Positions 9,478 to 63,762 of a stretch of DNA of 64,000 nucleotides are shown here, one piece after another (positions within the stretch are counted from its first letter, which is position 1; each line of letters starts with the position of its first letter). Source of the stretch: Bacillus sp. J37 (GTDB taxonomy: Bacteria; Bacillota; Bacilli; Bacillales; Bacillaceae); the NCBI RefSeq assembly GCF_000518865.1, contig NZ_JAEK01000006.1, positions 224-64,223 on the forward strand. The letters are read 5' to 3'. The position numbers and the translations under genes were made by a program. The notes below the pieces were generated by a model. It was not told the DNA's origin. It did no database searches and saw only the letters and a list, made by a program, of their open reading frames with translations.

Positions 9478-11547
9478 ATGGTACAAAGTTTATGGAATAA
9501 AGAAAAAGGTGCTTCATTATCTAAAGGTGTGGAAGAGCTGGTATATCGTTCTAACCTAATCGGGTCAGATCGTGCTGTTTGTAACTGGGGCGGTGGAAAC
9601 ACGTCAATGAAAACAATTGAGAAAGACTTCCGTGGCCGTGACATAGAGGTGATGTACGTTAAGGGTAGCGGTTCTGATTTAGCAACGATGAAGGCGCACA
9701 ATTTCACAGGCTTACGAATGGAGGATATTCGTCCATTAATCGAACGTGACGAAATGTCTGATGAAGAAATGGTTGCTTACCTTGCACACTGCATGATTGA
9801 TAGCAAACACCCACGTGCATCAATCGAAACTCTATTACATGCATTCTTACCATTCAAGCATGTTGACCATACACATCCGGATGCAATCATTGGTCTTTGC
9901 TGTGCAGACAATGGTCGCCAAATTGCTGAAGAAATCTACGGAGATCGTTTTGTCTGGGTACCATATGTACGCCCGGGATTCACACTTTCAAAAATGATCG
10001 CAGAAGGTGTTAAAAACAATCCAAACGCAGAATTAGTATTAATGGAAAAACACGGTCTTGTTGTTTGGGGGGAAACAGCTGAAGAAAGCTATGAAAAAAC
10101 AATTTCTGTTATTAATGAAGCAGAACAATATGTTCAGTCAAAATTAGTTGAAGAAAATGTATTTGGCGGACAAAAATACGAACCACTTGCTGAAGAAGAT
10201 CGCAAAAACGCTTTAGCACAAGTTATGCCAGTGATTCGCGGTGCAGTTAGCGAAGAAAAGAAAATGCTATTAACATATGATGATGCGGAAGATGTGCTGC
10301 AATTTGTAAACAGCCAAAATGCTCCAGAATTATCACAAGTAGGTGCAGCTTGTCCTGATCACTTAGTTCATACAAAAATGACACCTTTATTCATTGACTG
10401 GAACCCACAATCAGAAGATGTAGCTAGTTTAGTAGAAAAAGTAAAAGCTGGAATCGAAAGCTTTAAAGAAGAGTACAAAGCTTACTTCGAACGAAACAAA
10501 AACGAAGGTGACCAAATTTCTGAAACTGCTCCGCGTGTTATTTTAATTCCTGGTATCGGAATGGTGAACACTGGTAAAAACATAGCAATGGCTAACGTTA
10601 GTGGTGCTTTATACCACCGTGCAATCGCGGTTATGAAACGTTCTACAACTCTAGGAAAATTTGTTTCTTTAAATGAAAATGAATCATTCAATGTAGAATA
10701 TTGGCCATTAGAGCTTTATAAATTATCTCTAGCTCCTGCAGAAGCTGAGTTCTCAAGACAAGTAGCCTTTGTAACAGGTGGAGCTGGTGGAATCGGCAGC
10801 GAAACATGCCGTCAATTCGTAGCAGAAGGAGCACATGTAGTAATTGCTGACCTAAACTTAGAAGGTGCTGAAAAGGTAGCAGCAGAAATCAACGAGAAAT
10901 ATGGAGAGGGCCGTGCATTCGCAGTAAAAATGGATGTAACAAGTGAAGAAGCTGTTCAAAAAGCATTTAAACAAACTGCTCTAACTTACGGTGGCGTTGA
11001 TATTATCATAAACAATGCAGGTTTGGCAACTTCCAGCCCATTTGATGAAACATCTTTAAAAGAGTGGAACCTAAACATGAACGTTCTTGGCACAGGTTAT
11101 TTCCTAGTTGCCCGTGAAGCGTTTAAACAAATGAAATCACAAGGTACTGGTGGAAACATGGTATTCATCGGTTCGAAAAACTCTGTTTATGCTGGTAAAA
11201 ATGCAGCAGCATACAGCTCAGTTAAAGCAATGGAAACACACCTTGCAAGATGTATTGCAGCAGAAGGTGGAGAATTCGGAATCCGTGTAAACTCAGTTCT
11301 TCCAGATGCAGTGCTTCAAGGTTCAGCAATTTGGGGATCAAGCTGGAGAGAAGAGCGTGCAGCAGCATACGGAATTCACCCAGACCAATTAGAAGATCAC
11401 TATCGTAAACGTACTACATTACTAGTAAATATCTATCCAAAAGATATTGCACAATCTATTCTATTCTTTGCATCATCTAAATCAGATCGTACTACAGGGT
11501 GTATGTTAACTGTAGATGGTGGAGTTCCAGCAGCGTTTACCAGATAA
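9478..11547 (+). CDS. rhaEW: Bifunctional rhamnulose-1-phosphate aldolase / lactaldehyde dehydrogenase (RhaEW)
   Basis: 689-residue two-domain fusion. Residues ~1-340 are a class II aldolase that would split L-rhamnulose-1-phosphate into DHAP and L-lactaldehyde; NWGGGNTSMK binds the phosphate, and HAFLPFKHVDHTHPDAI supplies zinc ligands. Residues ~430-689 are an SDR domain (VTGGAGGIGSE, NNAG, YSSVK) that would oxidise lactaldehyde to L-lactate. Order and length match B. subtilis YuxG/RhaEW. GAGGAGG precedes the ATG. It stands first in the rhamnose cluster and directly downstream of lutABC, whose products would consume the L-lactate formed. Confidence 0.95.
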   Translation: MVQSLWNKEKGASLSKGVEELVYRSNLIGSDRAVCNWGGGNTSMKTIEKDFRGRDIEVMYVKGSGSDLATMKAHNFTGLRMEDIRPLIERDEMSDEEMVAYLAHCMIDSKHPRASIETLLHAFLPFKHVDHTHPDAIIGLCCADNGRQIAEEIYGDRFVWVPYVRPGFTLSKMIAEGVKNNPNAELVLMEKHGLVVWGETAEESYEKTISVINEAEQYVQSKLVEENVFGGQKYEPLAEEDRKNALAQVMPVIRGAVSEEKKMLLTYDDAEDVLQFVNSQNAPELSQVGAACPDHLVHTKMTPLFIDWNPQSEDVASLVEKVKAGIESFKEEYKAYFERNKNEGDQISETAPRVILIPGIGMVNTGKNIAMANVSGALYHRAIAVMKRSTTLGKFVSLNENESFNVEYWPLELYKLSLAPAEAEFSRQVAFVTGGAGGIGSETCRQFVAEGAHVVIADLNLEGAEKVAAEINEKYGEGRAFAVKMDVTSEEAVQKAFKQTALTYGGVDIIINNAGLATSSPFDETSLKEWNLNMNVLGTGYFLVAREAFKQMKSQGTGGNMVFIGSKNSVYAGKNAAAYSSVKAMETHLARCIAAEGGEFGIRVNSVLPDAVLQGSAIWGSSWREERAAAYGIHPDQLEDHYRKRTTLLVNIYPKDIAQSILFFASSKSDRTTGCMLTVDGGVPAAFTR

Positions 11548-11552
11548 TAAAG

Positions 11553-11600
11553 AATAAACAAGGTGTAACAGAATAAAGTTTCTATTACACCTTGTTTATT
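11553..11600 (+). terminator. Probable terminator after rhaEW
   Basis: A 16-bp perfect stem, 11553-11568 with 11585-11600. The arm itself ends TTGTTTATT, but only a weak T tract follows, so termination may be partial. Confidence 0.6.
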
Positions 11601-11608
11601 ATACTAAT

Positions 11609-11693
11609 AGAAAGCATAAGAAATAATTGATCATAGAATAAGAAAAGCCAAGACTTCCCGTATTAGGACCTGGAAATAAACCAAGTTTTTGTC
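11609..11693. repeat. Degenerate copy of post-terminator hairpin repeat (family C)
   Basis: This segment aligns with the copies at 50994, 52295 and 52638. Matching blocks are AGAAAG at the start, GATCAT...ATAAGAAAA, AAG.CTT, GGACcTGG..ATAA and AAGTTTTT. It is more diverged than the others. It begins 9 bases after the rhaEW terminator stem, the same placement as other copies. Confidence 0.5.
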
Positions 11694-11850
11694 CCGATTA
11701 TTTTGAAAGCGCATTAGTATAAAACACGGTGCGTTTACACTTACACTCTTGTATAATAAAATATCTAGAGCCTACAAGCATAAGAGCTGTCTCTTTTAGC
11801 ACGTAAGCTCAGACCTCATTATAAAAAGAAGTAACAGGAGGTATTGATCA
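11694..11850 (+). promoter_or_regulatory. Leader of rhaR with a -10 box
   Basis: TATAAT at 11752-11757 is a good -10; no matching -35 is present at 16-18 bases, and TTTACA at 11734 is too close. TGAAAGCGCATTAG at 11704 resembles a cre half-site but matches only 11 of 14 positions. The remaining bases before the AGGAGG site hold nothing I recognise. Confidence 0.4.
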
Positions 11851-12618
11851 ATGCTTGTAGCAGAAAGACATAAAAAAATCGTAGAAGTTGTAAATGAGAA
11901 GTTAAGTGTTCGTGTAACTGAGTTGAGTAAGATTTTCCAGGTAACGGAAGAAACAATTCGTCGTGATTTAGAAAAACTGGAAAAAGAAAACTTGTTACGC
12001 CGTAGTCATGGTGGAGCTGTTAGTATAAAAGACGAGCAAACTGAAGTATCGTATGCTGAACGGGAAATCACAAATGCTTCAGAAAAAAGATCCATTGCAA
12101 TTGAAGCAGTGAAACTTATTCAGCCAGGTGATCAAATCGTACTTGATGCGAGTACAACAGCATGGTATATGGCAAAAGAAATGCCTGATCTGCCCTTAAC
12201 TGTTTTGACAAATTCAATCAAGGTAGCGATAGAGCTTAGTAAAAAAGAACAGGTAAAAGTGATCTCAACTGGTGGCATGCTCCAACCGAAGTCTCTATCC
12301 TATGTCGGTCCATTAGCCGAAAGGTCACTTAATATGTACCATGTGAACAAAGCCTTCTTATCATGTAAAGGGGTACATGTGGACGCTGGTTTAAGCGATT
12401 CAAATGAATGGCAGGCATTATTAAAAAGACAAATGATTTCGATTGCAGACAAAACAATTCTGATGGCTGATTCTACAAAATTTGGTGTAAGAACATTTGC
12501 TCAAATTACGGACATTCAGCGAATTGGTTATGTCATTACAGATGATCACATTGATGAATCATTTTGCAGAGCACTGGAAGAAAAAGGTGTACGAGTAAAA
12601 ACCGTCGAGATAAAGTGA
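11851..12618 (+). CDS. rhaR: DeoR-family regulator of rhamnose catabolism
   Basis: 255-residue DeoR-type repressor. Residues 1-58 carry the HTH signature (RHKKIVEVVNEKLSVRVTELSKIFQVTEETIRRDLEKLEKENLLRRSHGGAV). The rest is the sugar-phosphate-isomerase-like sensor domain (DASTTAWYMAKEMP, VLTNSIKVAIELSK, STGGMLQPKSLSYVGP, DKTILMADSTKFGVR) that binds phosphorylated intermediates. In B. subtilis the equivalent protein between rhaEW and rhaB represses the rhamnose operon, and synteny supports the same role here. AGGAGG precedes the ATG. Confidence 0.9.
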   Translation: MLVAERHKKIVEVVNEKLSVRVTELSKIFQVTEETIRRDLEKLEKENLLRRSHGGAVSIKDEQTEVSYAEREITNASEKRSIAIEAVKLIQPGDQIVLDASTTAWYMAKEMPDLPLTVLTNSIKVAIELSKKEQVKVISTGGMLQPKSLSYVGPLAERSLNMYHVNKAFLSCKGVHVDAGLSDSNEWQALLKRQMISIADKTILMADSTKFGVRTFAQITDIQRIGYVITDDHIDESFCRALEEKGVRVKTVEIK

Positions 12619-12719
12619 GTCTTCGGTCAAAAGATTACTCCTATTTGAAAATAGGAAAACTGGATAAAACGGGGTAGTGGAAGCTATTCCGTTTTTTGCT
12701 AGAAAAAAGAGGGATCAAA

Positions 12720-13685
12720 ATGAGTGCGAATCTTTTACATGAACTATTGCAACTAAATGATGAGGAAAAATTAATGCTTCAGCAAAAAAAGGAAGTTCAA
12801 AAGGAGCTTTATACTAGCCAGGAACCCTTCATTGTTGAAGGTGAGAGATTTTTAAATCAAAATAAAATGATCATGGTGCGAAAACACACCAGATTTGTTC
12901 ACTTTCCGAAGCATAGGCACAATTATATAGAAGTGAATTATGTTTTTAGTGGTTCTCTTACCCAAACCGTTGGAAATGAACGAATGGAATTAAAAAAGGG
13001 AGATCTTTTATTTCTTAATCAACATATAGAGCATGAACTTGAAGCGTGCAATGAAGAAGATATTATTATTAACTTTATTATTAAGCCCGAATTCTTTACA
13101 TTTATTTTTTCTTACTTAACGACGGAAAATTTGATCTCAAACTTTTTAATTAGCAGCCTATTCGACCAAACAAAACAAGGTCAATTTTTATATTTTGCTG
13201 TATCAGAAATTGACAGTGTTCAAGAGCTTATTGGAAAAATCATCGTGGAAATTATGAATCCGTCAATGCTATCAGAATCAACGATAAAATTATATATGGG
13301 TTTGCTGATGGTAGAGCTTATAAAGAATTCGGATAAGGTCCGATACAATCAGGATCTGAATAAGCACTATATTATTGTGGAGTCCCTAAAATATATTGAA
13401 GAACATTTTCGACATGCTTCTTTATACGAATTGGCAGAAAAACTAAATCAACCTCATTACACCTTAAGTAAAGAAATTAAAAAGGCAACAACCTATACAT
13501 TTAAAGAGCTTGTCCAAGCAAAAAGATTGACCATTGCAAGAGATCTGTTGGAGAATACTTCACTATCTATTTCTGCTATTGTTGAAGAGGTAGGATATGA
13601 AAATATAAGTTATTTTTATCGTGTTTTTAAAAGCAAATATGGATATACACCAAAGAAATTTCGAGATCAACTTTCTAACAATTAG
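12720..13685 (+). CDS. AraC-family regulator with cupin sensor domain
   Basis: 321-residue AraC-type activator. The N-terminal cupin region (residues ~45-120: FVHFPKHRHNYIEVNYVFSGSLTQTV...KKGDLLFLNQHIEHELE) is a sugar-sensing arm; the C-terminal ~100 residues hold two HTH motifs ending in EEVGYENISYFYRVFKSKYGYTPKKFR. The ATG at 12720 follows AGAGGG by six bases; the frame extends eight codons upstream without a site. It lies between rhaR and rhaB, a place where B. subtilis has no such gene, so rhamnose metabolism here seems to have a second, positive regulator. Its own terminator follows. Confidence 0.88.
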   Translation: MSANLLHELLQLNDEEKLMLQQKKEVQKELYTSQEPFIVEGERFLNQNKMIMVRKHTRFVHFPKHRHNYIEVNYVFSGSLTQTVGNERMELKKGDLLFLNQHIEHELEACNEEDIIINFIIKPEFFTFIFSYLTTENLISNFLISSLFDQTKQGQFLYFAVSEIDSVQELIGKIIVEIMNPSMLSESTIKLYMGLLMVELIKNSDKVRYNQDLNKHYIIVESLKYIEEHFRHASLYELAEKLNQPHYTLSKEIKKATTYTFKELVQAKRLTIARDLLENTSLSISAIVEEVGYENISYFYRVFKSKYGYTPKKFRDQLSNN

Positions 13686-13727
13686 TCATGTCATTACTAG
13701 AAATAGTAGGTGATATGACTTTTTTTA
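13684..13727 (+). terminator. Terminator after the AraC gene
   Basis: Imperfect 16-17-bp stem (13684-13699 with 13704-13720), GAAA loop, followed by seven T. It separates rhaB-rhaA from the regulator genes. Confidence 0.85.
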
Positions 13728-13815
13728 CACCATTTTTTACTTGGCAAATAAGGACAATAAAATAATGAATTAAGATATAGGAACTTCCAGGGATATCAAC
13801 TAAAATAAATATAGA

Positions 13816-13829
13816 AGCAAGCGTTTTCA
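13816..13829 (+). promoter_or_regulatory. cre box before rhaB
   Basis: AGCAAGCGTTTTCA matches 12 of 14 positions of the CcpA consensus TGWAANCGNTNWCA, 17 bases before the rhaB start. TTGGCA at 13741 may be the -35 of the promoter, but no good -10 at 17 bases was found. The site would act as a roadblock in the leader. Confidence 0.6.
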
Positions 13830-13845
13830 GGGAAGAGGTGTCAAA

Positions 13846-15261
13846 ATGAGTAGATATAGCTTAGCTGTAGATATTGGTGCTTCAAGTGGAAGGTTAATAC
13901 TTGGGCATTTAGCTAATGGAAAATTAAACTTAAATGAGATTCATCGTTTTGAAAATAAGATAGTGAAGAAAAATGAACATTTTTGCTGGGATATTGAGGC
14001 CCTATTCCAAGAAATCAAAACAGGTATAAAAAAATGCAATGAACTAGGGATCAAGCCGGATAGCATTGGAATTGATACATGGGCAGTTGATTATGTCTTA
14101 CTTGACGAGCATGACAACCTCTTAACAGATGCAGTTGCATACAGGGATCCAAGAACAGACGGAATGATGGAAGAGGTCTTTAAAATCATTCCAAAGGAAA
14201 AATTATACTTTGAAACCGGGATCCAATTTCAAAAATTTAATACGATTTATCAATTGTTTGCGTTAAAGCAAACATCACCTGAAGTTTTACAAAAAGCAAA
14301 GTCATTCCTAATGATTCCTGAGTATTTTAGTTTTTTATTAACAGGAAAAAAGGCGAATGAGTATACAAATGCAACCTCTACCCAGCTTGTGAATGCATTT
14401 ACAAAAAATTGGGATCATGAGCTTCTAGAAAAGCTTGGAATTAACAAACAGATGTTTCACGAGATATTACCACCTAAAACAGTGTTAGGGACACTTTCAA
14501 AAGAGCTTGTTGAAGAGTTTGGTTTTGATATGAAAGTCGTATTACCGGCAACACATGATACGGGATCAGCTGTAATCTCTGTACCGGAAGTAGAGGACTC
14601 AGTTTATATCAGCTCCGGTACATGGTCGCTAATTGGTGTTGAAAACCGCTTTCCAATTTGTGTTCCGCAAGCGCTTAAATATAATTTCACAAATGAAGGC
14701 GGGATCGATTATCGATACCGTTTTCTTAAAAACATTATGGGCCTTTGGATGATTCAAGAAGTAAAGCGCAACTATCATGACCAATACTCTTTTGCAGAAT
14801 TAGTAAAGCTGGCTGAAAATGAAAAACAGTTCAAGTCGATTGTTAATGTGGATGATGACCGTTTCCTAAAGCCTGACAATATGATTGACGAAATCCAAAA
14901 ATACTGTCAGGAAACAAATCAGCCAATTCCGCAAACACCAGGTCAAATGGCAAAATGTGTGTATGATAGTTTAGCAGAGAGCTATAAACTGGCCATAAAT
15001 GAAATAGAAGAGATTTTTGAGAAAAAGTTTCCGAGAATAAATGTAATCGGTGGCGGATGCCAAAATGAAATGCTTAACCAAATGATTGCAAATGTTACGA
15101 ACAAAGAGGTTTGTGCAGGACCAATTGAAGCAACAGCTATTGGAAATATTGTGACACAATTTATGGCATTAGGTGAGATTCATACAATTCAAGAAGCAAG
15201 AACGACAATTAAAGATTCATTTGAAGTGAAAACATACAAACAACATTTCGTGAGAGGATGA
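13846..15261 (+). CDS. rhaB: L-rhamnulokinase
   Basis: 471-residue FGGY-family kinase that phosphorylates L-rhamnulose to the 1-phosphate using ATP. The N-terminal phosphate loop [15 protein letters not shown] (residues ~5-19), [13 protein letters not shown] (~75), the [13 protein letters not shown] block and [15 protein letters not shown] near the C-terminus are rhamnulokinase-type. Length matches RhaB. It is followed by rhaA with the rhaB stop lying six bases before the preferred rhaA start. AGAGGTG precedes the ATG. Confidence 0.95.
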
Positions 15262-15266
15262 TTAAG

Positions 15267-16520
15267 ATGTCAGTAAGAGAAAGCTATGAATTAGCCAAGA
15301 AGGAATATGCAAAATGGGGTATTAATGTAGATGAAGTGCTTGAGCAATTAAAACAAGTACCTATCTCAATCCACTGCTGGCAAGGTGATGATGTTGGCGG
15401 ATTTGAAGTAAATAAAGGTGAATTATCCGGAGGTATTGATGTAACAGGAAATTACCCGGGTAAAGCAAGAACACCTGAAGAGTTAAGAAGTGACCTGGAA
15501 AAAGCGCTATCATTAATTCCGGGAAAGCACCGTGTAAATCTTCATGCGATTTACGCTGAAACAAATGGAGAAGTAGTAGAGCGTGACCAACTAGAACCGA
15601 AACACTTTGAGAACTGGGTTAACTGGGCAAAAGAACAAGGGCTTGGACTTGATTTTAACCCAACATTATTTTCACATGAAAAATCTGCTGATGGCTTAAC
15701 ACTATCACATCCAGACAAAGAAATTCGTGAATTTTGGATCAACCATTGCATTGCCAGCCGTAAAATCGCTGAATACTTCGGAAAAGAGTTAGGCACACCT
15801 GCATTAACAAATGTTTGGATCCCTGATGGTTACAAAGATGTACCAAGTGACCGTTTAACCCCAAGAGTACGTCTAAAAGAGTCATTAGATCAAATCTTTG
15901 AAATAGAAATTGATGAACAATATAATATCGATGCAGTAGAAAGTAAATTATTTGGAATTGGTTCAGAAGCATATGTTGTTGGCTCCCATGAATTTTACAT
16001 GGGCTATGCGTTAAAAAATAACAAGCTTTGCTTATTGGATACCGGACATTATCACCCAACAGAAATGGTATCCAACAAAATTTCTTCTATGCTTCTATAC
16101 AGCGACAAACTGGCATTACACGTATCACGTCCAGTACGATGGGACAGTGATCACGTTGTCACACTTGATGACGAGTTAAAAGAAATTGCTCTTGAAATCG
16201 TTCGTAACGATGCATTAGATAAAGTGATGATCGGTCTTGATTTCTTTGATGCAAGTATCAACCGTGTTGCAGCATGGACAATTGGCACACGTAATATGAT
16301 TAAATCATTACTTCATGCAATGCTTGTACCAAACGACCACTTAAAACAACTTCAAGAAGAAGGAAACTTCACAGAAAGACTAGCATTAATGGAAGAATTC
16401 AAAACATATCCATTCGGTGCGATTTGGGATTACTATTGTGAGCAAAATGGTGTTCCTGTAAAGGAAACTTGGTTAGAAGATGTTAAGAAGTATGAGAATG
16501 AAGTACTTTCTAAGAGATAA
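15267..16520 (+). CDS. rhaA: L-rhamnose isomerase
   Basis: 417-residue metal-dependent isomerase converting L-rhamnose to L-rhamnulose. [45 protein letters not shown] and [18 protein letters not shown] carry the conserved metal and substrate residues. The ATG at 15267 lies nine bases after GAGAGG; the in-frame ATG three codons earlier abuts that site directly and is less likely. B. subtilis has a mutarotase gene (rhaM) before rhaA; it is absent here, and no separate copy was seen in the window. Confidence 0.95.
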
Positions 16521-19741: not shown

Positions 19742-22700
19742 ATGGTCAGGAAAAGAACTAAACTTAAAAAAATAGTCGGTACTTTAACGATAGCTTCACT
19801 GCTAATAGGTTCCATCATTTCTAGTAACCCAAAAGTATCCAGCGCTGAAGTAACCACAAAAACAATTACAATCGATGGAAAAGATGTCGATGAATATAAC
19901 AGATTTAAGGGTTTTGGTACAGTAACAGCCAATAATACATCACGTTTGATGCTGGATTATAAAGAAGAGCATCCCAAAAAATACTGGGAAATGATGAATC
20001 TCCTGTTTAATAAGGATACAGGAGCGGGTTTATCACATGTCAAAGTGGAGTTAGGTGCGGATGTGAATTCATCTTCAGGAACTGAGCCTGCAACGATGAG
20101 GTATGCAGATGAGCCGGCAAACGTATTAAGAGGAGCGGGATTTCAATTTGCAGCTGATGCAAAATCTATCAACCCTGATATTACCACGGAAATATTGCGT
20201 TGGGGTGAGCCTAGATTTACATGGAATGGTGCAGCAGAAAAAGAATATGAAGACCGGTACCAATGGTACAAAAAGACAATTGATGCAGTGTTTCATGAAT
20301 ATGGATTCCACTTGGATTATATAGGAATCTCACAAAATGAAAGAGCACAAAATAATGGTAGAAATGAAGTTGACTGGCTTAAATATTTTACGACAAAAAT
20401 AAAAGAAGAACCAAACTATGAAACAGACTATAAAGCTATTAAACTTGTTGCAGCTGACGGGTATCGTGATACAAAAACGATTAGTCGAACTCTTCTTGAT
20501 CATGCAGATTTAATAGATGAGATTGATGTTATTAGTTCTCACTATGGGTTAACTGGTTCTAATGAGCTTACTGAATTACAAAACAAGTTAATTGATGAAG
20601 GGAAGAAGCCAAAAGAGGTTTGGGTTTCAGAAGGAATCGCTCCGATGATTAATGCACGTTATCGTGAAAATATGGAGCCGAATTACAATGGGCTTGGTGG
20701 AAAAGCAGGAATTATTGATGTAACATCACGAATCATTTCAGTATATTCATGGACAGGAGCACAAAATAATCCGCTGAATGCTGTTTCTTTTGATTTTCAG
20801 CCATCAGTTGCAGCGTTTTATGAAGGGTCTGCATACAACCCAAAACACTTAATTAGTGCTTATGATCCATGGTCAGGCTTTTATGAAGTAGATGGTGGGG
20901 TACAAGGAGTTCGCCATGTCATGAACTTTGTCGGATATGATGATCACTTAACACCTGAAAATGAGCGCTGGATGTATGTGAAGGATGCAACATTTAGTGA
21001 TGGGAACTTCTTTGATGGAGGGGTTGATGTTGACACAAGTACTCATAACTACCTTACGTTAAAAGACCCGCAATCAGATGATTATACGACTGTTTTTGCA
21101 AACAATACAAAGGAAACCCGTAAATATAAAATCAAGGCGAAAAATTTAAGTGGCAAAGAACATGCACCAATTTATGTTTGGGAAACTCGGGGACCTGATA
21201 AAGGCCAAGCATATGATGCGAATTGGTTTAAGAACATCAATGTTATTAAACCTCAAAAAGGTGAATACGTGATTGAAGTGAAACCATATTCAATCGTGAC
21301 AATTTCCACATTGGATAAGGAATCTAAAGTAGATGATTTTGAATATGAATCAAGTCCTGCTGATTTATCAAAAGACAAGATAATGTCACTCCCATATAAG
21401 GATGATTTTGAATATAAACAATATCCGGATGATAAAAAAGGAAGAGACTATGTTGAAAGAAGAGGAGGTACTCCACGTTATACAACAGATCAAATCGGGG
21501 CATTTGAAGTTGTTAAAAAAGCAACGAAACCTGTCACAAGTGGAAGTGCAAAACGGACAGATCTAAAAATACCAGATGCAAAAGCACATGGAAATATGCT
21601 GCAGCAGAAAATGACTCCTGACATTATCGGAGCAGATTGGGCAGTTTGGGGTGGAACTGATGGATCAGCTGCTAGCAGTAACCCGCATACAACAATAGGT
21701 GATCACCGCTGGGTCAATTACAAAGCTTCTTACGACTTTTTATTAGATACACATACACCGGAAGTAGAAGGAAGAAGTAACTATGCTTTAATTGGCGTAC
21801 GTCAAGTGAAAGCAGGTGGGTCAGATTCTTATGCACCGTACAATGCACGTATATATAGTGATGGAAAATATGAGATCCTTAAACTAGGCAAGGTTGTTGA
21901 GAGTGGACAGATTGAAAAATTCAATAACAAAGTTTGGCATAATTTAGGGTTTGAAGCAAAAGAAAATGTATTTACTCTTTACCTGGATGGAAAGAAAATT
22001 GCTGCATATACAGATGAAGATTCGACTGTAATGGCAGGCAGAGTCGTTTTAGGTTCTGGATACTATGAAACTCTTATTGATAATTTGCGAGTAGATCCTA
22101 TTAAAGGATACACTTATGAGTCTGAAAAGTTTGACAGTGCGCAAGGGAAGAAATTTGAAACGGAAGAAGAAGCTCTAAACCATAACGATGAATTAAATCC
22201 AATCGGGTATGTTGGAAAATGGAATTATACACAAGCGGGTTATGCGCACTTTAACCGTACGCAGATGACAGCAGCAACAGATATTCCTGTTTGGAACGGC
22301 GTGACGATAGGGCATGGTGATTCAACAACAACGAAAGGTACGTTGAATAAAGTTTACTATACCGGCAATTGGTCTTCCAACAGTTCTAATGCTTGGACCT
22401 CTGATGGTTCCTTGGAAATTACATTTAAAGGAACAGAAATAAGGTTATATGGTATAACAAATCCTTCAAATGGAACAGCTGATATTTATTTGGATGGAAA
22501 ATTAGTCGGTGAAGCGAATTATGTAAATAATAGTGAAATTCATCAGGAAGTGTGGTCCTCAGAAATACTTGAAGATACAGAACATACTCTTAAAGTAGTA
22601 GCAAAAGAAAAGTATCTTAGCTTTAGTAAGGTCGAAATTGAAACAAACGATCCAGTCTTGTCAGTCCAAAAATTAGTGCCAAATGATATCGTGAAAATTT

Positions 22701-23539: not shown

Positions 23540-23614
23540 AGCTGAGAAGTTCATACTGCTTCATAGTTTTATGGCCCAATTATTTATAAAGGTGCTGACG
23601 ATATCACTTTTGAG

Positions 23615-23642
23615 ACCTGGGTTATGTTTAACCCGGGTTTTG
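23615..23642 (+). terminator. Terminator after the GH59 gene
   Basis: Ten-base arms ACCTGGGTTA (23615-23624) and TAACCCGGGT (23629-23638) with one G-T pair, followed by TTTG. The short T tract makes it moderate. Confidence 0.6.
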
Positions 23643-23798
23643 TTAGTATGGGATGTCTAAGTGAAGAAAGCTGTTGTACCTGTAAGTTCGATTCGTAAAA
23701 GTAAAAATAATACTAAAATGAGTAAAAAAATTGATACTCAAAAAAGCGGACACAATTTAATATAAAGGTATTATTGCACCAATGAGGAGGGGAAAAGA

Positions 23799-24422
23799 AT
23801 GGAAACATCCGGTTGGACAGGGGGCATTTACAGAATTTGTGATTGGATTAGTAAACTTGCTTATGTAAATCTATTATGGATGTTCTTTACATTAGCCGGT
23901 CTTATATTATTTGGAATAGCACCTTCAACGGTAGCTTTATTTACAATAATACGTAAATGGATGATGGGAGAGCATAACATTTCAATCTTTTCTTCGTTTT
24001 GGGATGTCTATAAACGAGAGTTCAAAAAGGCAAATATTCTTTTGGGGTCATTATTAGTTGTCATAGCTTTTATGTATATTGATTTAGTATTGATTCAGGC
24101 AATGCAAGGATTACTGCATTATATTTTCTTAACATGTTTTGTAATAATGTCTATTATTTTAACGATTATCTTCCTATATATATTTCCTGTATATGTACAT
24201 TTTGAGGGCTCAATCCTTCATTATTATAAGTCTTCTATTTTATTAGGAACCTCTTTTCCATTACGTACTTTCATGATGGTTCTCGCCGTCGGAACTGGTC
24301 TGTTCATTAGTTTACTCTTTCCTGGTGTTGCTTTTCTTTTTTTAGGTAGTGGAATAGCTTTTGCACTCACGTACTTTTCTTACTCGATCTTTCCAAAAAT
24401 GAGTCCTGGTGTGGATGTTTAA
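23799..24422 (+). CDS. YesL-like (DUF624) integral membrane protein
   Basis: 207 residues with about five hydrophobic segments. The opening GIYRICDWISKLAYVNLLWMFFTLAGLILFGIAPSTVALFTIIRKWMMGE is the signature of DUF624/YesL proteins. In Bacillus these genes regularly sit beside YesM/YesN-type two-component systems and carbohydrate ABC transporters, as here, but their biochemical role is not known. GAGGAGGGG precedes the ATG, and a terminator follows, so it may be a separate unit from the importer genes. Confidence 0.85.
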   Translation: METSGWTGGIYRICDWISKLAYVNLLWMFFTLAGLILFGIAPSTVALFTIIRKWMMGEHNISIFSSFWDVYKREFKKANILLGSLLVVIAFMYIDLVLIQAMQGLLHYIFLTCFVIMSIILTIIFLYIFPVYVHFEGSILHYYKSSILLGTSFPLRTFMMVLAVGTGLFISLLFPGVAFLFLGSGIAFALTYFSYSIFPKMSPGVDV

Positions 24423-24446
24423 AAAGAATAGTTGAATTTTTATTAA

Positions 24447-24483
24447 AGACACCCTATTAACCTAATGGTCTTGGGTGTTTTTT
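24447..24483 (+). terminator. Terminator after the YesL-like gene
   Basis: ACACCC (24449-24454) and GGGTGT (24473-24478) with partial further pairing inside, followed by TTTTTTG. Confidence 0.6.
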
Positions 24484-54368: not shown

Positions 54369-54382
54369 ATTTGTGCTATAAT
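54355..54382 (+). promoter_or_regulatory. kduD promoter
   Basis: TTGTCA (54355-54360), 16 bases, TATAAT (54377-54382) with an extended -10 (TGCTATAAT). The -35 lies in the right arm of the preceding terminator. No cre box was seen before kduD. Confidence 0.65.
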
Positions 54383-54442
54383 CAAACTATACTGAACAAT
54401 ATCGAACATTTAAGTACGATAATAAACAGAGGAGGGGTAGAA

Positions 54443-57957: not shown

Positions 57958-59724
57958 ATGAAAAACTTAAAGCTTTGTATTTTCAACAGATACAAGAACT
58001 TAAAAATTAAGTATAAACTAATTATCATTATTTCGACCATAATGGTGGTTTGTTTATCGTTTATTATCTTAGGCTTTCAATATGCTTTTAATAGCTATGA
58101 TGAACAAATTTATCGCAAGTCCTCACAAGTTCTAATCATGTCTTCTAACAGGATTGAAGACGAACTAAAAAACATTGAAGAAGTTTCCTATAGAGTACTG
58201 GCTGATAATAAAATTCAACAGGCATTAATTGAAGCTAAGAAAGAGCTTACTAACTACGATCAATATCAAATTGAAAAGGAAATTAGGGATACCCTGACAA
58301 GTTATATAGGATCTGAGGAGTATATTCAATCCATTCATCTGTTTGACACAAATGGAAAGGAATATCAGGCTGGTAAAATCACGGCATCTATTCTTTACGA
58401 AAATGCTGATCATCTTGAACAAAGAGCAAGAGAAGGGGACGGAAGAAATGTATGGGTTTCACTAAAAGATTCGCAAAATACAATCTTTTCTGCAAGACAG
58501 TTAAGATCTTATCAAAACCTAAGCCTTGATAATTTGGGAACATTGATTATTGAGGTGTCCTTAAATGACATCGTAAAGGAGCTTCCAAGGGAGTGGGGAG
58601 GACAGGAAGGACGTATAGCGATTTCAAATGGAGAAGACATCTTTTTTGCTGAAGAAACATCCATACAGATTGATAAATTAAATTTATCTGTAAGTGATAG
58701 ACAGGGGTATCAAATTCAAAAACTAGCTGAAAGAAATTACTTTGTCACATACTCAAATTCTACGTATGCCAATTGGACATATTGGAATGTGCTGCCTTTC
58801 GAAACAATGTTTGCAAAAGTTACGACAATTAAGTTTTTGGTCATTTTTTTATTTTTCGTTATTTTACTATCTTCCATCTACTTTTTCATTCGTTTTTCGA
58901 AAAGGATTACAGATCCAATTGAGAACTTGGTTTCAGCTATGAAAGTCGTACAAAATGGTGATTTTAAAGCTGTTGATACATTTAGGCTTACTGAAGAAAA
59001 AGATGAAATAGGGATTCTTCACAGAAATTTCTTTGTCATGATTGAAAGAATCAATGATTTAATCAATGAAAACTATGAAAAACAACTTCTTATAAAGGAT
59101 ACGGAATTTAAAGCATTGCAATCCCAAATCAATCCACATTTTCTCTATAATACACTCGAATCAATTAATTGGTTAGCGAAGATCAATAAACAAACCCAAA
59201 TATCAAAAATGGTTGAATCACTGGGCTTTCTGCTAAGAAATGCAATTAGCTTAAAGGATGATGTGATAACCGTTCAAGAAGAAATCGAAATGGTTCAGCA
59301 TTATATTACTATTCAAAAATTCAGATTTGAAGAGCGTCTGGATTTTTCACTTGCGATCAATGAAAATGTCAAAGGCTGTCTTATACCAAAACTGATTATC
59401 CAACCGCTAGTAGAAAATGCAATTAATTATGCACTTGAAATGATGTTGGAGCCATGCCAAATAAAAGTTTCTGCATATAAAGAAGGGAAAGATCTATACC
59501 TTGCTGTTGAGGATAATGGACAGGGGATGGATATGGCACAACTTGAACAAGTGCGAAGGGGAGAATTTAAGACAAGAGGAAATGGGATTGGCCTTAGTAA
59601 CATAGATTCTAGAATAAAATTTGTCTTCGGGTCAAAATATGGATTACAAATTGATAGCGAGTTAAACATTGGAACAAAGGTGCTCATTATCATTCCATAT
59701 CAAACGAGGTGGAGTTATGTATAA
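57958..59724 (+). CDS. Sensor histidine kinase, YesM type, second copy
   Basis: 588 residues. TM helices at ~20-42 and ~285-310 flank an extracellular dCache-like sensor; a HAMP (RITDPIENLVSAMKVVQNGDFKAV), the His-box FKALQSQINPHFLYNTLESINWLAK and HATPase motifs (LVENAINYALE, VEDNGQGMD, GNGIGLSNIDSRIKFVFG) follow. The ribosome site before the ATG is weak. The response-regulator gene overlaps its end by eight bases. It is a paralogue of the kinase at 29295 and serves the second importer. Confidence 0.92.
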   Translation: MKNLKLCIFNRYKNLKIKYKLIIIISTIMVVCLSFIILGFQYAFNSYDEQIYRKSSQVLIMSSNRIEDELKNIEEVSYRVLADNKIQQALIEAKKELTNYDQYQIEKEIRDTLTSYIGSEEYIQSIHLFDTNGKEYQAGKITASILYENADHLEQRAREGDGRNVWVSLKDSQNTIFSARQLRSYQNLSLDNLGTLIIEVSLNDIVKELPREWGGQEGRIAISNGEDIFFAEETSIQIDKLNLSVSDRQGYQIQKLAERNYFVTYSNSTYANWTYWNVLPFETMFAKVTTIKFLVIFLFFVILLSSIYFFIRFSKRITDPIENLVSAMKVVQNGDFKAVDTFRLTEEKDEIGILHRNFFVMIERINDLINENYEKQLLIKDTEFKALQSQINPHFLYNTLESINWLAKINKQTQISKMVESLGFLLRNAISLKDDVITVQEEIEMVQHYITIQKFRFEERLDFSLAINENVKGCLIPKLIIQPLVENAINYALEMMLEPCQIKVSAYKEGKDLYLAVEDNGQGMDMAQLEQVRRGEFKTRGNGIGLSNIDSRIKFVFGSKYGLQIDSELNIGTKVLIIIPYQTRWSYV

Positions 59725-61255
59725 AGTTTTACTAGTTGATGACGAAAGAATTATTTTAGAAGGTATTTCAAGTATCATAGACTGGGAAGAAATTGGTACT
59801 GAATTAATTGGTACCGCGCGTAACGGCCTTGAGGCCTACGATTTTATTGTGAGAGAAAAGCCGGATATTGTTATTTGTGACATTAAAATGCCTGGTATGA
59901 CCGGATTGGAATTAGTAGCAAGAGTGTCCAAAGAATTTCCTGAAGTGAAATTTATCATTTTGTCCGGATTTAACGAGTTTGAGTATGCGAAGCGAGCAAT
60001 GGAGCATGGGGTAAAGCATTATTTACTAAAGCCTTGTAATGAAAAGAGTATTGTTGAAGCACTAACAAGTATCATAAATGATCTATCAACAGATGCAAAG
60101 AAAGAGCAGTCTCTCTTTGATATGAAGAGCCGCCTGGATCAGATCCAACCATATATGAAAAAGCAGTTACTCAAGGAATTCATTACAACCAAGCTTGATA
60201 ATAATCAAGGTATTCAATTTTATGAAAAGCTTTTAAGAGTCAATTTTCATGATGAGTTTATAAGGCTTATTATTTTCCGTATTGAAGGAGAATACCATTA
60301 CGAGCATATGTTTGTCATTGAAAATCTTGGAGAAGATCTATTTTCTGAATCCGTCTTATCAACAAATATCGGCGAATATGCATTATTTCTTGTCGATGAA
60401 CAGGATTTTTCAATTCTTCAAGATCGAATTGAACGATTACGCAATCATTTCTTTAACATATACGAAATGGATATGACTGTTGCGATAAGTGAGATGGATT
60501 GTATTACTAATGTTAGAAAACTATATTTAGAGGCATTAGAATGTTTACATCACCGGTTCTATTTAGGAGAAGGAAGCATTATAACGAAAAATGATATCCA
60601 GCAGGATACGAAATTAACAGACTATGAATATGATGGACAAAGCTTGTGTCTATTTATAAAATCCGGGAATATCGAAAAGGTTGAAAATGAAATCGTACAA
60701 TTTTTTCAAGAGTTGGCAAGTAAAAGACTATCTATTGGGTTAGCAAGATCATATGTTATGCAGTTGTTTTTAGTCATGATCCAACATACTGACTCTAAAA
60801 GGATCCAATCTTATACAGGGAAAATGTCTTCATTGCTGGAAATGGACACAATTCAACAAATGAAAGAATCCTTTCTTATGACAGCAATTGACATTACCCA
60901 ACATTATTATGAGAAACATAAGTCCAATCATTCCGAAGTTATTCAGAAGATGATGGACCTTGTGGAGAAAAACCTGGCAAATACAGATTTATCTCTAAAA
61001 TGGGTTGCTAATAAGGTGTATATGAATGCTGACTATTTAGGTAAACTTTTTAAACAGGAAACAGGTGAAAAGTTTTCCAGTTTTGTAACACAGCAACGGA
61101 TAAATAAAGCCATGGAACAGATTGAATTAATGGATGATATTAAAGTATTTGCTATAGCTGAAAGTATAGGGTTTGGAGATAACCCCCAATATTTTAGTCA
61201 GGTATTCAAGAAATTTACAGGTTATTCTCCATCTGAATATAAGAAAGTCAATTGA
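59717..61255 (+). CDS. Response regulator, YesN type, second copy
   Basis: 512 residues: receiver (YKVLLVDDERIILEGISSIIDWEEIG, phospho-Asp in VICDIKMPGMTGLELV, Lys in YLLKPCNE), long linker, and AraC HTH pair (LSLKWVANKVYMNADYLGKLFKQETGEKFSSFV ... AESIGFGDNPQYFSQVFKKFTGYSPSEYK). The ATG at 59717 lies after GAGGTGGAG within the end of the kinase gene. It is a candidate for binding the 31-base motifs before the ASRT gene and the binding-protein gene. Confidence 0.93.
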   Translation: MYKVLLVDDERIILEGISSIIDWEEIGTELIGTARNGLEAYDFIVREKPDIVICDIKMPGMTGLELVARVSKEFPEVKFIILSGFNEFEYAKRAMEHGVKHYLLKPCNEKSIVEALTSIINDLSTDAKKEQSLFDMKSRLDQIQPYMKKQLLKEFITTKLDNNQGIQFYEKLLRVNFHDEFIRLIIFRIEGEYHYEHMFVIENLGEDLFSESVLSTNIGEYALFLVDEQDFSILQDRIERLRNHFFNIYEMDMTVAISEMDCITNVRKLYLEALECLHHRFYLGEGSIITKNDIQQDTKLTDYEYDGQSLCLFIKSGNIEKVENEIVQFFQELASKRLSIGLARSYVMQLFLVMIQHTDSKRIQSYTGKMSSLLEMDTIQQMKESFLMTAIDITQHYYEKHKSNHSEVIQKMMDLVEKNLANTDLSLKWVANKVYMNADYLGKLFKQETGEKFSSFVTQQRINKAMEQIELMDDIKVFAIAESIGFGDNPQYFSQVFKKFTGYSPSEYKKVN

Positions 61256-61260
61256 TGATA

Positions 61261-61300
61261 AAAGCTCACAATCTATTGAACTAGATTGTGGGCTTTATTT
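61261..61300 (+). terminator. Terminator after the second two-component system
   Basis: AAAGCTCACAATCTA (61261-61275) pairs with TAGATTGTGGGCTTT (61282-61296), with one G-T pair and a 6-base loop, followed by ATTTG. Confidence 0.8.
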
Positions 61301-61359
61301 GTAGGAGATAGTACCTGTAATAGATAGTAAGTCCAAGTAGTTTAAAAATAGTTGTCAGA

Positions 61360-61446
61360 ATTCACTGTTTTTTGAACAGAGTTATCTGATTTTTGCATTT
61401 CAAAAGACCTATAAACCTAATAAAATAAGGGTTGTAAGCGGTAACA
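61360..61446 (+). promoter_or_regulatory. Conserved motif, -10 and perfect cre box before the second importer
   Basis: The 31-base motif occupies 61360-61390 (ATTCACTGTTTTTT at its start). -10 TAAAAT starts at 61421, 31 bases after the motif end. TGTAAGCGGTAACA (61433-61446) matches all 14 cre positions and covers the expected start point. This gives activation by a specific regulator plus glucose repression. Confidence 0.65.
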
Positions 61447-61468
61447 GTAAATAAGAGGGGGAAGAGAA

Positions 61469-62776
61469 ATGAAGAAATGGTTGTTTTGGTTATTAGCAGT
61501 TGTTATGGTATTTTCTTTGGCAGCCTGTAGTGGAGGAAGTAATACTTCTTCAGGTGAATCTACTTCAGATTCAGGCGGTGGAAGCGGAGATGAAGAAATT
61601 AAACTTCGTATTGCATGGTGGGGATCTGAACCACGTCATGATTACACATTAGAAATAATCGAAATGTATGAAAAAGAAAATCCAGGTGTAAAGATTCAAG
61701 CTGAATATGCTAGCTGGGATGATTACTGGAAGAAGTTAGCACCACAGGCTTCTGCACAACAACTTCCTGATATTATTCAAATGGACCTTTCCTATTTTTC
61801 ACAGTATGCAGAAAATGGTCAATTAGCTGATTTAACTCCATATGTTGGAAATCAAATTGATACAACAAATTACACTGAAAATTATATTAACGGTGGAAAA
61901 ATTGGTGATAAATTATATGGCTTTAACTTAGGAGTAAACGTTGTTGGTCTTCACTATGATGAAGCACTTTTAAAGAAAATCGGTGTTGATTCGTTACCTG
62001 AAGATTGGACATGGGATGATTATATGGAAATCGCGGCAAAAGCGAAAGATGCCGGTCTCTTTATGGACACAGGTATGAAAGCAGATGTTTTCTTTAACTA
62101 CTACTTAAGAACACAAGGAAAGTCTTTATATAGCAAGGATGGTACTGCTTTAGGATATGAGGATGACCAAATGTTTATTGATTTCTTCAGTATGACATCA
62201 CAATTAGTAAAAGATGGTGCTGTCCCAACACCTGATTATCTGGCTCAATTGAAGGGTCTGGAGGACGATCCGGTTGTAAAAGAAAAAGCAGTTGGAATTT
62301 GGCAATGGTCTAACCAATTCGTTGGTATTCAGCAGGTAGCTAATCGTCCGTTGAAAATTCACAACATGCCGGGACCTAACACAAGTGATGGTTTGTATTT
62401 AAAACCTAGTATGTTCTGGTCTGTTGCCGAGAATTCAAAACATAAAGAGGAAGCAGCGAAGTTCATTGACTTCTTCGTAAATAATGTCGAAGCAAACAAA
62501 TTAAATTTAGGAGATCGCGGAATCCCTGGCTCTTCTGTTATTAAGGAAGAACTGAAGCCTGTGTTAACACCAGAACAAGTCCAAGTATTTGATAGTGTCG
62601 AATGGGCTGAACAAAACAGTTCTGAATTTGATGGTCCGGATCCGATCGGTGCAGGCCAAGTTATTGAGCTTTTAGATAGCCTATCAGAACAAATGAATTA
62701 TGGTCAAATGAAGGTTGAAGATGCTGCTAAACAATTTAGACAACAAGCAGAAAGCATATTATCTCAAAATAAATAG
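61469..62776 (+). CDS. Sugar ABC transporter substrate-binding lipoprotein, second system
   Basis: 435 residues with lipobox LAAC (Cys20) and a Ser/Gly-rich linker. The binding-protein body includes LRIAWWGSEPRHDYTLEIIEMYEKENPGVKIQAEYASWDDYWKKLAPQASAQQLPDIIQMD and FYSVAENSKHKEEAAKFIDFF-type C-terminal blocks of family 1 solute-binding proteins. Such proteins in kdu/yes-type loci bind uronate-containing di- or oligosaccharides. GAGGGGG precedes the ATG. The two permeases follow. Confidence 0.93.
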   Translation: MKKWLFWLLAVVMVFSLAACSGGSNTSSGESTSDSGGGSGDEEIKLRIAWWGSEPRHDYTLEIIEMYEKENPGVKIQAEYASWDDYWKKLAPQASAQQLPDIIQMDLSYFSQYAENGQLADLTPYVGNQIDTTNYTENYINGGKIGDKLYGFNLGVNVVGLHYDEALLKKIGVDSLPEDWTWDDYMEIAAKAKDAGLFMDTGMKADVFFNYYLRTQGKSLYSKDGTALGYEDDQMFIDFFSMTSQLVKDGAVPTPDYLAQLKGLEDDPVVKEKAVGIWQWSNQFVGIQQVANRPLKIHNMPGPNTSDGLYLKPSMFWSVAENSKHKEEAAKFIDFFVNNVEANKLNLGDRGIPGSSVIKEELKPVLTPEQVQVFDSVEWAEQNSSEFDGPDPIGAGQVIELLDSLSEQMNYGQMKVEDAAKQFRQQAESILSQNK

Positions 62777-62787
62777 TGATTAAAACA

Positions 62788-62819
62788 CTAGTAGCTGGTC
62801 ATTATAGATCAGCTACTAG
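62788..62819 (+). other. Hairpin between binding-protein and permease genes
   Basis: CTAGTAGCTGGTC (62788-62800) and GATCAGCTACTAG (62807-62819) pair with one G-T pair around a 6-base loop. No T run follows. It probably stabilises the upstream mRNA or limits read-through so that more binding protein than permease is made. Confidence 0.65.
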
Positions 62820-62862
62820 ACTTTAAAATATCATCACTATTTGGGAGAAAGGAAATGATCGT

Positions 62863-63762
62863 ATGAGTGCTCGCGCCCTTAAACAAAATATGAAAGGCTA
62901 CGCATTTATTAGTCCCTTTATCATTGGGTTTCTAGCGTTTACGTTTATCCCAATTGTTGCCTCATTATACTTTTCATTCACACAATATAACCTATTCGCT
63001 TCTCCAACATGGATTGGTCTTGAAAACTATAAAAAAATGTTTACTGAAGATCCAAGGTACTGGCAATCTCTCAAAGTTACCCTTATCTATGTTTTTGCCG
63101 GAGTTCCATTACGTTTAGGATTTGCTTTATTAATCGCCATGGTACTTAACACAGCATCAAGAGCTGTAGGGTTATACCGGACGCTATTTTATCTGCCTTC
63201 TTTAATAGGAGGTAGTGTTGCCGTTGCTATTATGTGGCGTAATATTTTCGGTGATGAAGGAATTATCAACCTGTTGCTGGCATTCTTCAGTATTCCGGAT
63301 GTTCGCTGGTTTGGTGACCCAACAGCAGCACTTTGGATGCTTATCTGTTTATCTGTATGGCAATTTGGTTCATCGATGTTAATTTTCTTAGCTGGATTAA
63401 AAGGTATACCAATGACTTATTATGAAGCGGCAAGTGTTGACGGAGCGAACTTTTGGCAAAAATTCACGAAAATTACACTTCCGATGTTAAGCCCGGTTAT
63501 TTTATTTAATACAATTATGCAAACCATTGCAGCATTTATGACATTTGTTCCAGCTTTCATTATTTCGAAGGGAACGGGTGGTCCTTTAGATGGAACCCTT
63601 CTTTACTCACTCTATCTATTCATTCAAGGATTTGAATTCTTTAATATGGGCTATGCGTCAGCGATGGCATGGATCATGCTTATTATTGTAGGAATTCTTA
63701 CAGCGATTATCTTTGCTACATCGAAGTTTTGGGTTCACTATGAATCGGAAGGAGGGAAATAA
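62863..63762 (+). CDS. Sugar ABC transporter permease, MalF type, second system
   Basis: 299 residues, six TM segments. The ATPase-contact loop is YYEAASVDGANFWQKFTKITLPMLSPVILFN. GYAFISPFIIGFLAFTFIPIVASLYFSFTQYNLF is a typical first helix of CUT1 permeases. GAAAGGAAATGA precedes the ATG. The partner permease begins two bases after its stop. Confidence 0.93.
   Translation: MSARALKQNMKGYAFISPFIIGFLAFTFIPIVASLYFSFTQYNLFASPTWIGLENYKKMFTEDPRYWQSLKVTLIYVFAGVPLRLGFALLIAMVLNTASRAVGLYRTLFYLPSLIGGSVAVAIMWRNIFGDEGIINLLLAFFSIPDVRWFGDPTAALWMLICLSVWQFGSSMLIFLAGLKGIPMTYYEAASVDGANFWQKFTKITLPMLSPVILFNTIMQTIAAFMTFVPAFIISKGTGGPLDGTLLYSLYLFIQGFEFFNMGYASAMAWIMLIIVGILTAIIFATSKFWVHYESEGGK

Follow-up and report, generated by a model that had tools for sequence, protein, structure and literature searches.

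In this report, we describe a 64,000-nucleotide stretch of the genome of Bacillus sp. J37 (bases 224-64223 of the 193,357-base contig NZ_JAEK01000006.1, in a genome of 5.3 Mb), hereafter the window, with emphasis on a gene cassette at positions 19742-36575 that may serve the breakdown of acidic side chains of a plant glycan. Genes were named by searches against Pfam, NCBIfam and the sequences of the Protein Data Bank (PDB), and signal peptides were judged by reading the translations. The cassette comprises the following genes:

19742..23539, plus strand, GH59-family enzyme of 1265 aa (Pfam GH59, 248.6 bits)
23799..24422, plus strand, DUF624 (YesL-like) membrane protein (Pfam DUF624, 98 bits)
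24612-25550 and 25522-26397, plus strand, two ATP-binding cassette (ABC) sugar permeases (Pfam BPD_transp_1)
26536..27897, plus strand, solute-binding protein of importer 1 (Pfam SBP_bac_1)
28025..29152, plus strand, GH88 predicted unsaturated glucuronyl hydrolase (Pfam GH88, 41.2 bits; PDB 1vd5, E 1.2e-72)
29226-31109, plus strand, YesM-type histidine kinase (Pfam)
31109-32716, plus strand, YesN-type regulator (Pfam)
32797..34644, plus strand, DUF2264/GH154 protein with DUF2264_C domain (Pfam, 444.1 bits; PDB 8oi4/9o4u/9nwf)
34749..36575, plus strand, PL33_2-type lyase of heparinase fold (PDB PL33 structures, E 4e-32)

NCBIfam has no model that matches the lyase, the DUF2264 protein or the GH88 protein, and the lyase is without a match in Pfam as well. 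Intergenic gaps within the cassette range from -29 to 259 bases. Neither promoter-like sites (70 between 19 and 38 kb, against 74.3 in shuffled sequences) nor terminator-like sites (10 against 9.1) are in excess, and the operon structure therefore rests on strand and spacing.

The set GH59-DUF624-importer-GH88-YesM/YesN-DUF2264/GH154-PL33_2-type lyase is a conserved unit of the Bacillales. A survey covered the best 80 of 551 confirmed lyase candidates, from Bacillaceae, Paenibacillus, Cohnella and relatives, with flanks of 10 kb (some contigs ending earlier) and a threshold of at least 200 bits. GH88 was present at 63 of these loci, the solute-binding protein at 51, the permeases at 48 and 50, YesN at 48, YesM at 47, GH154 at 45 and GH59 at 13, the last count being possibly low because the GH59 gene of the present genome ends 11 kb from the lyase, past the flank. 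GH88 or GH154 occurs at 66 loci and both occur at 42. The corresponding counts are 3 each for kduI and kduD, 2 for rhaA/rhaB, 1 for GH3 and 0 for the GH43-like gene found at 56 kb in the window. The closest relative (L058:14618-16156) has a sulfatase gene some 2.8 kb downstream from its lyase gene and ahead of the AraC and GH3 genes; in the window, the interval from the lyase to the AraC gene holds no open reading frame (ORF) of at least 100 aa. At three Paenibacillus loci (L089:16929-21194, joined by L090 and L111 through clustering), GH97 and a chondroitinase-B-like gene follow PL33/GH88.

The lyase aligns with the PL33 structure 8r73 over residues 49-493 (E 4e-32, PDB sequence search), and its closest named match, from Metabacillus halosaccharovorans, is 92% identical, by which the host is probably a Metabacillus. 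Residues R103, H154, N238 and W239 of BtPL33 correspond to R75, H127, N208 and W209 of the lyase, residues Y291, H444, Y470 and F475 correspond to Y261, H407, Y433 and F438, and the position of W242 is taken by V212, the PL33_2-type Val; all of these are invariant in a 15-sequence alignment. The roles of the catalytic (N238, Y291, H444), +1-subsite (R103, H154) and tunnel-loop residues are set out in the BtPL33 study (PMC11848413). The platform residue L174 is Leu in the 8r73 alignment and a mismatch in the BtPL33 alignment, and W224 falls inside an unaligned insert. An AlphaFold2 model (predicted local distance difference test, pLDDT, 87.5) has an (α/α)6 toroid plus β-sheet fold, and its top ten Foldseek matches are all PL33 (template modelling scores 0.78-0.83). 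By reading, the lyase has no signal peptide and is predicted to be cytoplasmic, where it would eliminate the O4 substituent of glucuronic acid (GlcA). An open -1 subsite may admit α-linked sugars in PL33, according to PMC11848413, and would suit α-linked rhamnose (Rha).

The DUF2264 protein belongs to GH154, presented in PMC12269599 as a family of glucuronate dehydratases, and its nearest solved relatives (PDB 8oi4/9o4u/9nwf) include such enzymes. Mutation of the ten active-site residues of BcGDH abolished activity (PMC12269599); nine of the ten are kept in the window protein (E74, R78, N177, W178, F181, Y229, R285, Y289 and Y354), and the tenth, N176, aligns to Asp or Cys, with Thr in 8oi4 by reading. 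The product of 32797-34644 is accordingly annotated as a predicted β-D-glucuronate dehydratase. It carries an extra C-terminal domain, DUF2264_C (Pfam). In PMC12269599, BT3677, cited there as an exo-β-1,6-glucuronidase, was found to have dehydratase activity and a second domain, and BcGDH, a chondroitin enzyme, is described as having no second domain and no hydrolase activity, in a family without a hydrolase-like active site. The same source shows terminal GlcA being processed by GH154 and GH88 in tandem. The GH88 protein of the window matches the solved unsaturated glucuronyl hydrolase 1vd5 (E 1.2e-72) and, having no signal peptide by reading, is taken as cytoplasmic. Its catalytic aspartate motifs seem to be present by reading.

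The GH59 protein has an N-terminal signal peptide by reading, together with GH59 lectin-type and CE2_N-like domains. It aligns with PDB galactocerebrosidase (E 1.4e-16), including both the NER and the SE glutamates, which we take to be catalytic, and we propose that the secreted enzyme would provide an extracellular step on β-galactan. Further galactan-type enzymes occur at related loci. A large secreted GH43 is encoded at five of the 80 loci, none of which has GH59 in the stretch; the one of the five run against the PDB matches exo-β-1,3-galactanases (6eug, E 2e-76; 3vsf, 7bys and 5flw). The present genome has one such gene, GH43_24-like, on contig 48 (E 2e-87 to 6eug); 6eug and 6euf are presumably GH43_24 enzymes of Bacteroides thetaiotaomicron. 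In genome G059, GH154-PL33-YesNM-importer-GH59-GH43-GH30 stand on one strand, the GH30 matching the solved endo-β-1,6-galactanase 24td (E 3.4e-42), so that galactan-cleaving and GlcA-releasing families are seen together at one locus. GH30 galactanase-like genes lie near PL33 at three loci in total, the others being in G164 (a 219-residue ORF) and in G239, where PL33 stands with GH43_24 and GH30, without GH154 or GH88. A β-galactosidase-type gene (GH2 LacZ, GH42 or GH35) occurs at 15 of the 80 loci by clustering, with three representatives checked by Pfam, and galK/galT-like genes were recognized, by reading only, at two (L070, L072). A further cluster beyond the window, L139:52-9773 (contig 91, 95-105 kb), holds two permease sets, a GH42-like gene and a GH30 gene whose product, by reading, has no signal peptide. 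In type II arabinogalactan, GlcA is β-1,6-linked and often capped by α-1,4-Rha, as in gum arabic (PMC8377490), and the joint presence of β-1,3- and β-1,6-galactan enzymes with GlcA enzymes points to this glycan.

Co-occurrence was surveyed across 299 genomes of the order, with a lyase threshold of E 1e-20. The lyase is present in 21 (PL33+ genomes). Strong GH59 matches (>250 bits) occur in 13 of the 299, that is, in 11/21 PL33+ and 2/278 other genomes (p 7e-13, a value that is too small since p ignores kinship among these related genomes); matches below 100 bits were dropped (the next after 252 bits scores 69.7, and many are ORFs of about 445 aa, maybe GH30). In nine of the 11 genomes GH59 and the lyase share a contig within about 14 kb, and in G164 and G170 they lie on different contigs. 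The catalytic part of a GH43_24-like exo-β-1,3-galactanase was found in 7/21 PL33+ and 0/278 other genomes, after removal of G019, G034, G097, G294 and further G000 matches, which cover the C-terminal part of the query only; the match in G059 is 39% identical. Among 80 chosen genomes, GH30 galactanase-like genes occur in 8/21 PL33+ and 0/59 PL33- genomes, although four of the eight match only weakly (E 1e-21 to 2e-27) and could represent GH30 of other types. The two GH59+ PL33- genomes, G232 (L141, L143) and G208 (L142, L144), have the importer, YesMN, GH154 and GH88 beside GH59, showing that the cassette can stand without PL33. The order in G232 is GH59-DUF624-importer-YesMN-GH154-GH88, which corresponds to the dehydratase branch alone.

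Taken together, we put at about an even chance that 19742-36575 is a cassette that handles acidic side chains on type II arabinogalactan, and we infer its substrate, activities and regulation as follows. The secreted GH59 enzyme, of a β-galactosidase-type family, would release fragments outside the cell, and the ABC importer would take up galacto-oligosaccharides tipped with GlcA. Inside, the PL33-type lyase would eliminate whichever sugar is attached at O4 of GlcA, most often Rha, while the GH154 protein would act in parallel, eliminating water from bare terminal GlcA. Both eliminations would leave a 4,5-unsaturated uronyl end, which the neighbouring GH88 would remove in the present genome. 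The resulting 4-deoxy-5-ketouronate would pass to KduI/KduD, rhamnose to RhaA/B/EW and galactose to the Leloir route, and YesM/YesN would sense the substrate. The first-pass annotation of this DNA had guessed at Rha-GlcA-Gal units of arabinogalactan proteins, and this guess gains backing from the linkage of the cassette with GH59 and, elsewhere, with GH43_24-like and GH30 galactanase-like genes. It had also called the two enzymes heparinase-like and DUF2264; these labels can be refined to a PL33 relative and a GH154-type protein, the dehydratase role of whose relatives had been overlooked. Its concern that the two might belong to families with unrelated substrates was not borne out, as both families act on GlcA. 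The chain from lyase to GH88 that it drew fits the present genome, but not all relatives.

Several observations weigh against this interpretation. GH59 is known as galactosylceramidase, and we found no published arabinogalactan activity for the family. In the present genome, the cassette does not share its contig with the GH43_24- and GH30-like genes, GH59 alone being local; in G087 and G180 the GH43_24 matches run across in-frame stops, and 6/21 PL33+ genomes are without both strong GH59 and GH43_24. When 8-40 kb of sequence surrounding the lyase was surveyed in each of the other 20 PL33+ genomes (200 bits), GH154 was found in 15, the permease in 12, the solute-binding protein and YesN in 11 each, YesM in 10, GH59 in 10 (two of them on another contig), GH88 in 4, GH43_24 and GH30 in 2 each, and rhaA and kduI in none; the figures for GH88, GH154 and GH59 are far below those of the 80 nearest loci. 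GH10 xylanase, an enzyme with no tie to arabinogalactan, is enriched as well (15/21 PL33+ against 35/278, a count that omits three genomes under the cut-off), so that a plant-feeding lifestyle explains part of the co-occurrence. Within GH10+ genomes the links are weaker but persist (GH59 7/15 against 2/35, GH43_24 6/15 against 0/35), and the physical linkage of GH59 to the cassette is unaffected by this confounder. The characterised PL33 enzymes described in PMC11848413 act on glycosaminoglycans (GAGs) or gellan, or have glucuronan as the substrate of a side activity; three members, of PL33_2 type or other, were inactive on its substrate panel.

The distribution of GH88 bears on the proposed common exit. 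A GH88-family gene (GH88 or GH105) over the Pfam cut-off is present in 8/21 PL33+ genomes and missing from 13/21, compared with its presence in 11/34 GH10+ PL33- genomes; some GH88 genes may be missed, since the window-type clade scores about 32-51 bits with Pfam GH88. Among the 16 PL33+ genomes whose lyase locus includes GH154, nine lack such a gene over the cut-off (G049, G075, G123, G160, G186, G196, G222, G271 and G279), and there the exit step fails or uses another enzyme. This absence from most PL33+ genomes weakens both the pathway outlined above and the wider proposal for the PL33 clade given below; as it stands, the common GH88 exit holds for the present genome and its nearer relatives, not for the whole PL33+ set.

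Outside the cassette, the window contains the following features:

9478..16520, plus strand, rhamnose catabolism block rhaEW-DeoR-AraC-rhaB-rhaA (family searches)
9478-11547, plus strand, rhaEW (NCBIfam TIGR02632)
13846-15261, plus strand, rhaB (Pfam/NCBIfam)
15258-16520, plus strand, rhaA (Pfam/NCBIfam)
38944-41244, GH3 (Pfam)
41600-42810, paired chromate transporters (Pfam)
46632-50707, GerABC germination operon (Pfam)
52756-54051, xanthine/uracil-type permease (Pfam)
54371-55198, plus strand, kduD (NCBIfam equivalog)
55404-56234, plus strand, kduI (NCBIfam equivalog)
from 56330, GH43-like protein (Pfam, 33.8 bits against a cut-off of 32.2; no NCBIfam match)
57958..63762, plus strand, second YesM/YesN, solute-binding protein (61469) and permease (62863) (Pfam; permease by reading)

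Searches of Pfam, NCBIfam and the PDB confirmed the earlier calls of rhaEW/rhaB/rhaA, GH59, GH88, DUF2264, the heparinase-like protein, GH3, kduI and kduD, and Pfam did so for both YesM/YesN pairs. Of the two importers called, the first is upheld; the second is upheld for its solute-binding protein, its permease (62863-63762) having no Pfam match at E 1e-10 and a name from reading only. The GH43-like call stands just above the Pfam cut-off and finds no match in NCBIfam. For GH3, the top NCBIfam model, exo-α-1,6-L-arabinopyranosidase, scores 900.7 bits, below its cut-off of 1300, and was not used.

The second locus (54-64 kb) is an ordinary rhamnogalacturonan I (RG-I)/galacturonate cluster and a separate system. 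Beyond the window end, YesM/YesN and the importer are followed by a further solute-binding protein (by reading) and then, by Pfam, by a GH88/GH105-family hydrolase, a GDSL esterase, GH42, a PL11 rhamnogalacturonan lyase and UxaC, the same stretch also holding mannitol-dehydrogenase-family (UxaB-like) and altronate-dehydratase-family (UxaA-like) proteins. The kduD/kduI genes adjoin this cluster rather than the lyase cassette. The GerABC-type operon and the paired chromate transporters stand between the two sugar loci. The first-pass annotation had joined both loci into one split system; with PL11, GH42, the esterase and Uxa-type genes past the window and unrelated genes between the loci, the claim fails as stated, and treating both as one system was ruled out because the second locus is its own RG-I cluster. 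Nor does its grouping of rha, kdu, GH3, the 56 kb GH43 and the second YesMN/importer with the lyase hold, since rha, kdu, GH3 and GH43 are rarely or never found at the 80 related loci.

The rha and kdu genes could nevertheless form a shared trunk. RhaA is single-copy in the genome, as is full-length kduI (a second match has only 26% identity over 101 residues), and both sugar routes could therefore need these enzymes and may share them. RhaA is found in 16/21 PL33+ and 18/278 other genomes and, among GH10+ genomes, in 15/15 PL33+ and 9/35 PL33- genomes; its enrichment was rejected as proof, since GH10 is enriched too, and was kept as supporting only after the restriction to GH10+ genomes. On one contig, rhaA lies 18-40 kb from the lyase in the present genome, G063 and G019. 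In G063, rhaEW-DeoR-AraC-rhaB-rhaA (L147:8011-15013) follows the order of the window, about 40 kb from the lyase. These observations on single copies, enrichment and distance are what speaks for the two loci, rha, kdu, GH3 and GH43 acting jointly on one polysaccharide, a reading that is hardly probable given the separate RG-I cluster and the scarcity of rha (2/80) and kdu (3/80) at lyase loci, with 0/20 in the other PL33+ stretches.

Other explanations of the cassette itself concern either the GH154 protein or the substrate. On the same substrate, the two-domain GH154 protein might be a hydrolase that frees GlcA or unsaturated uronate, leaving GH88 optional; this would account for the 9/16 genomes with GH154 and no GH88-family gene over the cut-off and would recall the first report on BT3677 as an exo-β-1,6-glucuronidase. 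We consider it quite unlikely, as the dehydratase residues are kept in the window protein, divergent GH88 genes may have escaped Pfam (about 40 bits here), and PMC12269599 gives dehydratase activity for BT3677, no hydrolase activity for BcGDH and no hydrolase-like active site for the family. It is unlikely, too, that the cassette serves a GAG or a GAG-like bacterial capsule (chondroitin, hyaluronan or heparosan), as in the PL35/GH88/GH154 system of Bacteroides caccae. The nearest solved relatives of the lyase are hyaluronan and chondroitin lyases, a chondroitinase-B-like gene lies near three Paenibacillus lyase loci, and the combination of a lyase of this superfamily with GH88 and GH154 follows the logic of BcPUL25 (PMC12269599); loci of the L089/L090/L111 type may have a different substrate, Pfam having been run on L089. 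On the other hand, no use on GAGs is known for GH59 or for the exo-β-1,3-galactanase-like and GH30 galactanase-like genes. A Pfam run on 20 of the 743 neighbour genes left unmatched around the 80 loci gave no hexosaminidase catalytic domain, and the extra C-terminal domain of the window GH154 recalls the second domain of BT3677, whereas BcGDH is described without one (PMC12269599).

Gellan, or another exopolysaccharide of Rha, GlcA and glucose, is an improbable substrate. The window GH88 is closest to 1vd5, which we take to come from a gellan-degrading Bacillus. Gellan presumably lacks galactose, whereas the cassette is accompanied by galactosidase- and galactanase-like genes, and the lyase, without a signal peptide by reading, would meet imported oligosaccharides only. 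In favour of gellan, PL33_2 includes a gellan lyase (PMC11848413).

A further family, c11 (about 550 aa), occurs within 10 kb of PL33 at 5/80 loci and in 1/299 genomes, G208, where it adjoins GH59 and PL33 is missing. Its copies are:

L084, 14960-16669
L071, 19350-21002, minus strand
L103, 1039-2721
L120, 6066-7706
L126, 11867-13528
G208:C7, 46674-48317 (L148, L142)

No match to c11 was found in Pfam, PDB sequences or PHROGs, and a profile comparison with PL33 revealed no relation (0.8% probability). Its structural model is poor (pLDDT 62.5), and Foldseek matches to the toroid lyases PL33, PL35 and PL17 are a hint that c11 is possibly a new lyase family. Extending the arabinogalactan interpretation to the clade, we tentatively suggest, as a possibility well short of even, that these PL33 enzymes left GAGs to become cytoplasmic Rha-(1,4)-GlcA lyases for plant arabinogalactan, with GH154 partners handling bare GlcA in parallel and GH59 as a bacterial galactan cleaver, that PL33+GH154 genomes without GH88 hold a new unsaturated-uronyl hydrolase, and that c11 is a new lyase family.

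Each of the enzyme families is known; full-text searches of a literature library did not turn up their joint use on arabinogalactan by Bacillales, PL33 serving as the lyase. To our knowledge, Bacteroides, bifidobacteria and fungi are the main groups in which the breakdown of arabinogalactan has been studied in detail, and we found no paper in that library that describes GH154, GH59, PL33 and GH88 as a system, a search that would miss other naming. If true, an operon of this kind in a Gram-positive bacterium, combining a PL33 lyase with a dehydratase, would extend the substrate range of both enzyme families, assign a role to GH59 in bacteria and offer enzymes for trimming gum arabic. It would also put the recent view of GH154 enzymes as dehydratases to the test on a glycan from plants.

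Among known systems, the Bacillus yes/yte RG-I cluster resembles the second locus in PL11, the GH88/GH105-family hydrolase, GH42, the GDSL esterase and YesM/YesN, with no difference of weight. The arabinogalactan set of B. thetaiotaomicron includes GH105 and GH43_24, and in the window GH88 would take the place of that GH105. As described in PMC8377490 and PMC12269599, the set comprises a PL27 Rha-GlcA lyase, a GH145 α-rhamnosidase and the GH154 enzyme BT3677; GH154 is common to both, as are a lyase expected to act on 4-O-Rha-GlcA, an unsaturated-uronyl hydrolase and, in related genomes, exo-β-1,3-galactanase-like genes, while the window has a PL33-like lyase for PL27 and GH59 as the secreted enzyme at the locus. 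Compared with the PL33 family as covered in PMC11848413, the window lyase is alike in sequence, catalytic residues, fold and the PL33_2-type Val, but known members act on GAGs or gellan, whereas its clade shows linkage with galactan enzymes and seems to be cytoplasmic. BcPUL25 of B. caccae (PL35, GH88 and GH154; PMC12269599), a chondroitin pathway, is alike in that a toroid-fold lyase and a GH154 dehydratase feed one GH88; the window differs from it in having a PL33-like lyase for PL35, an extra C-terminal domain in GH154, an ABC importer and YesMN, and galactan-type enzymes in place of an enzyme for N-acetylgalactosamine.

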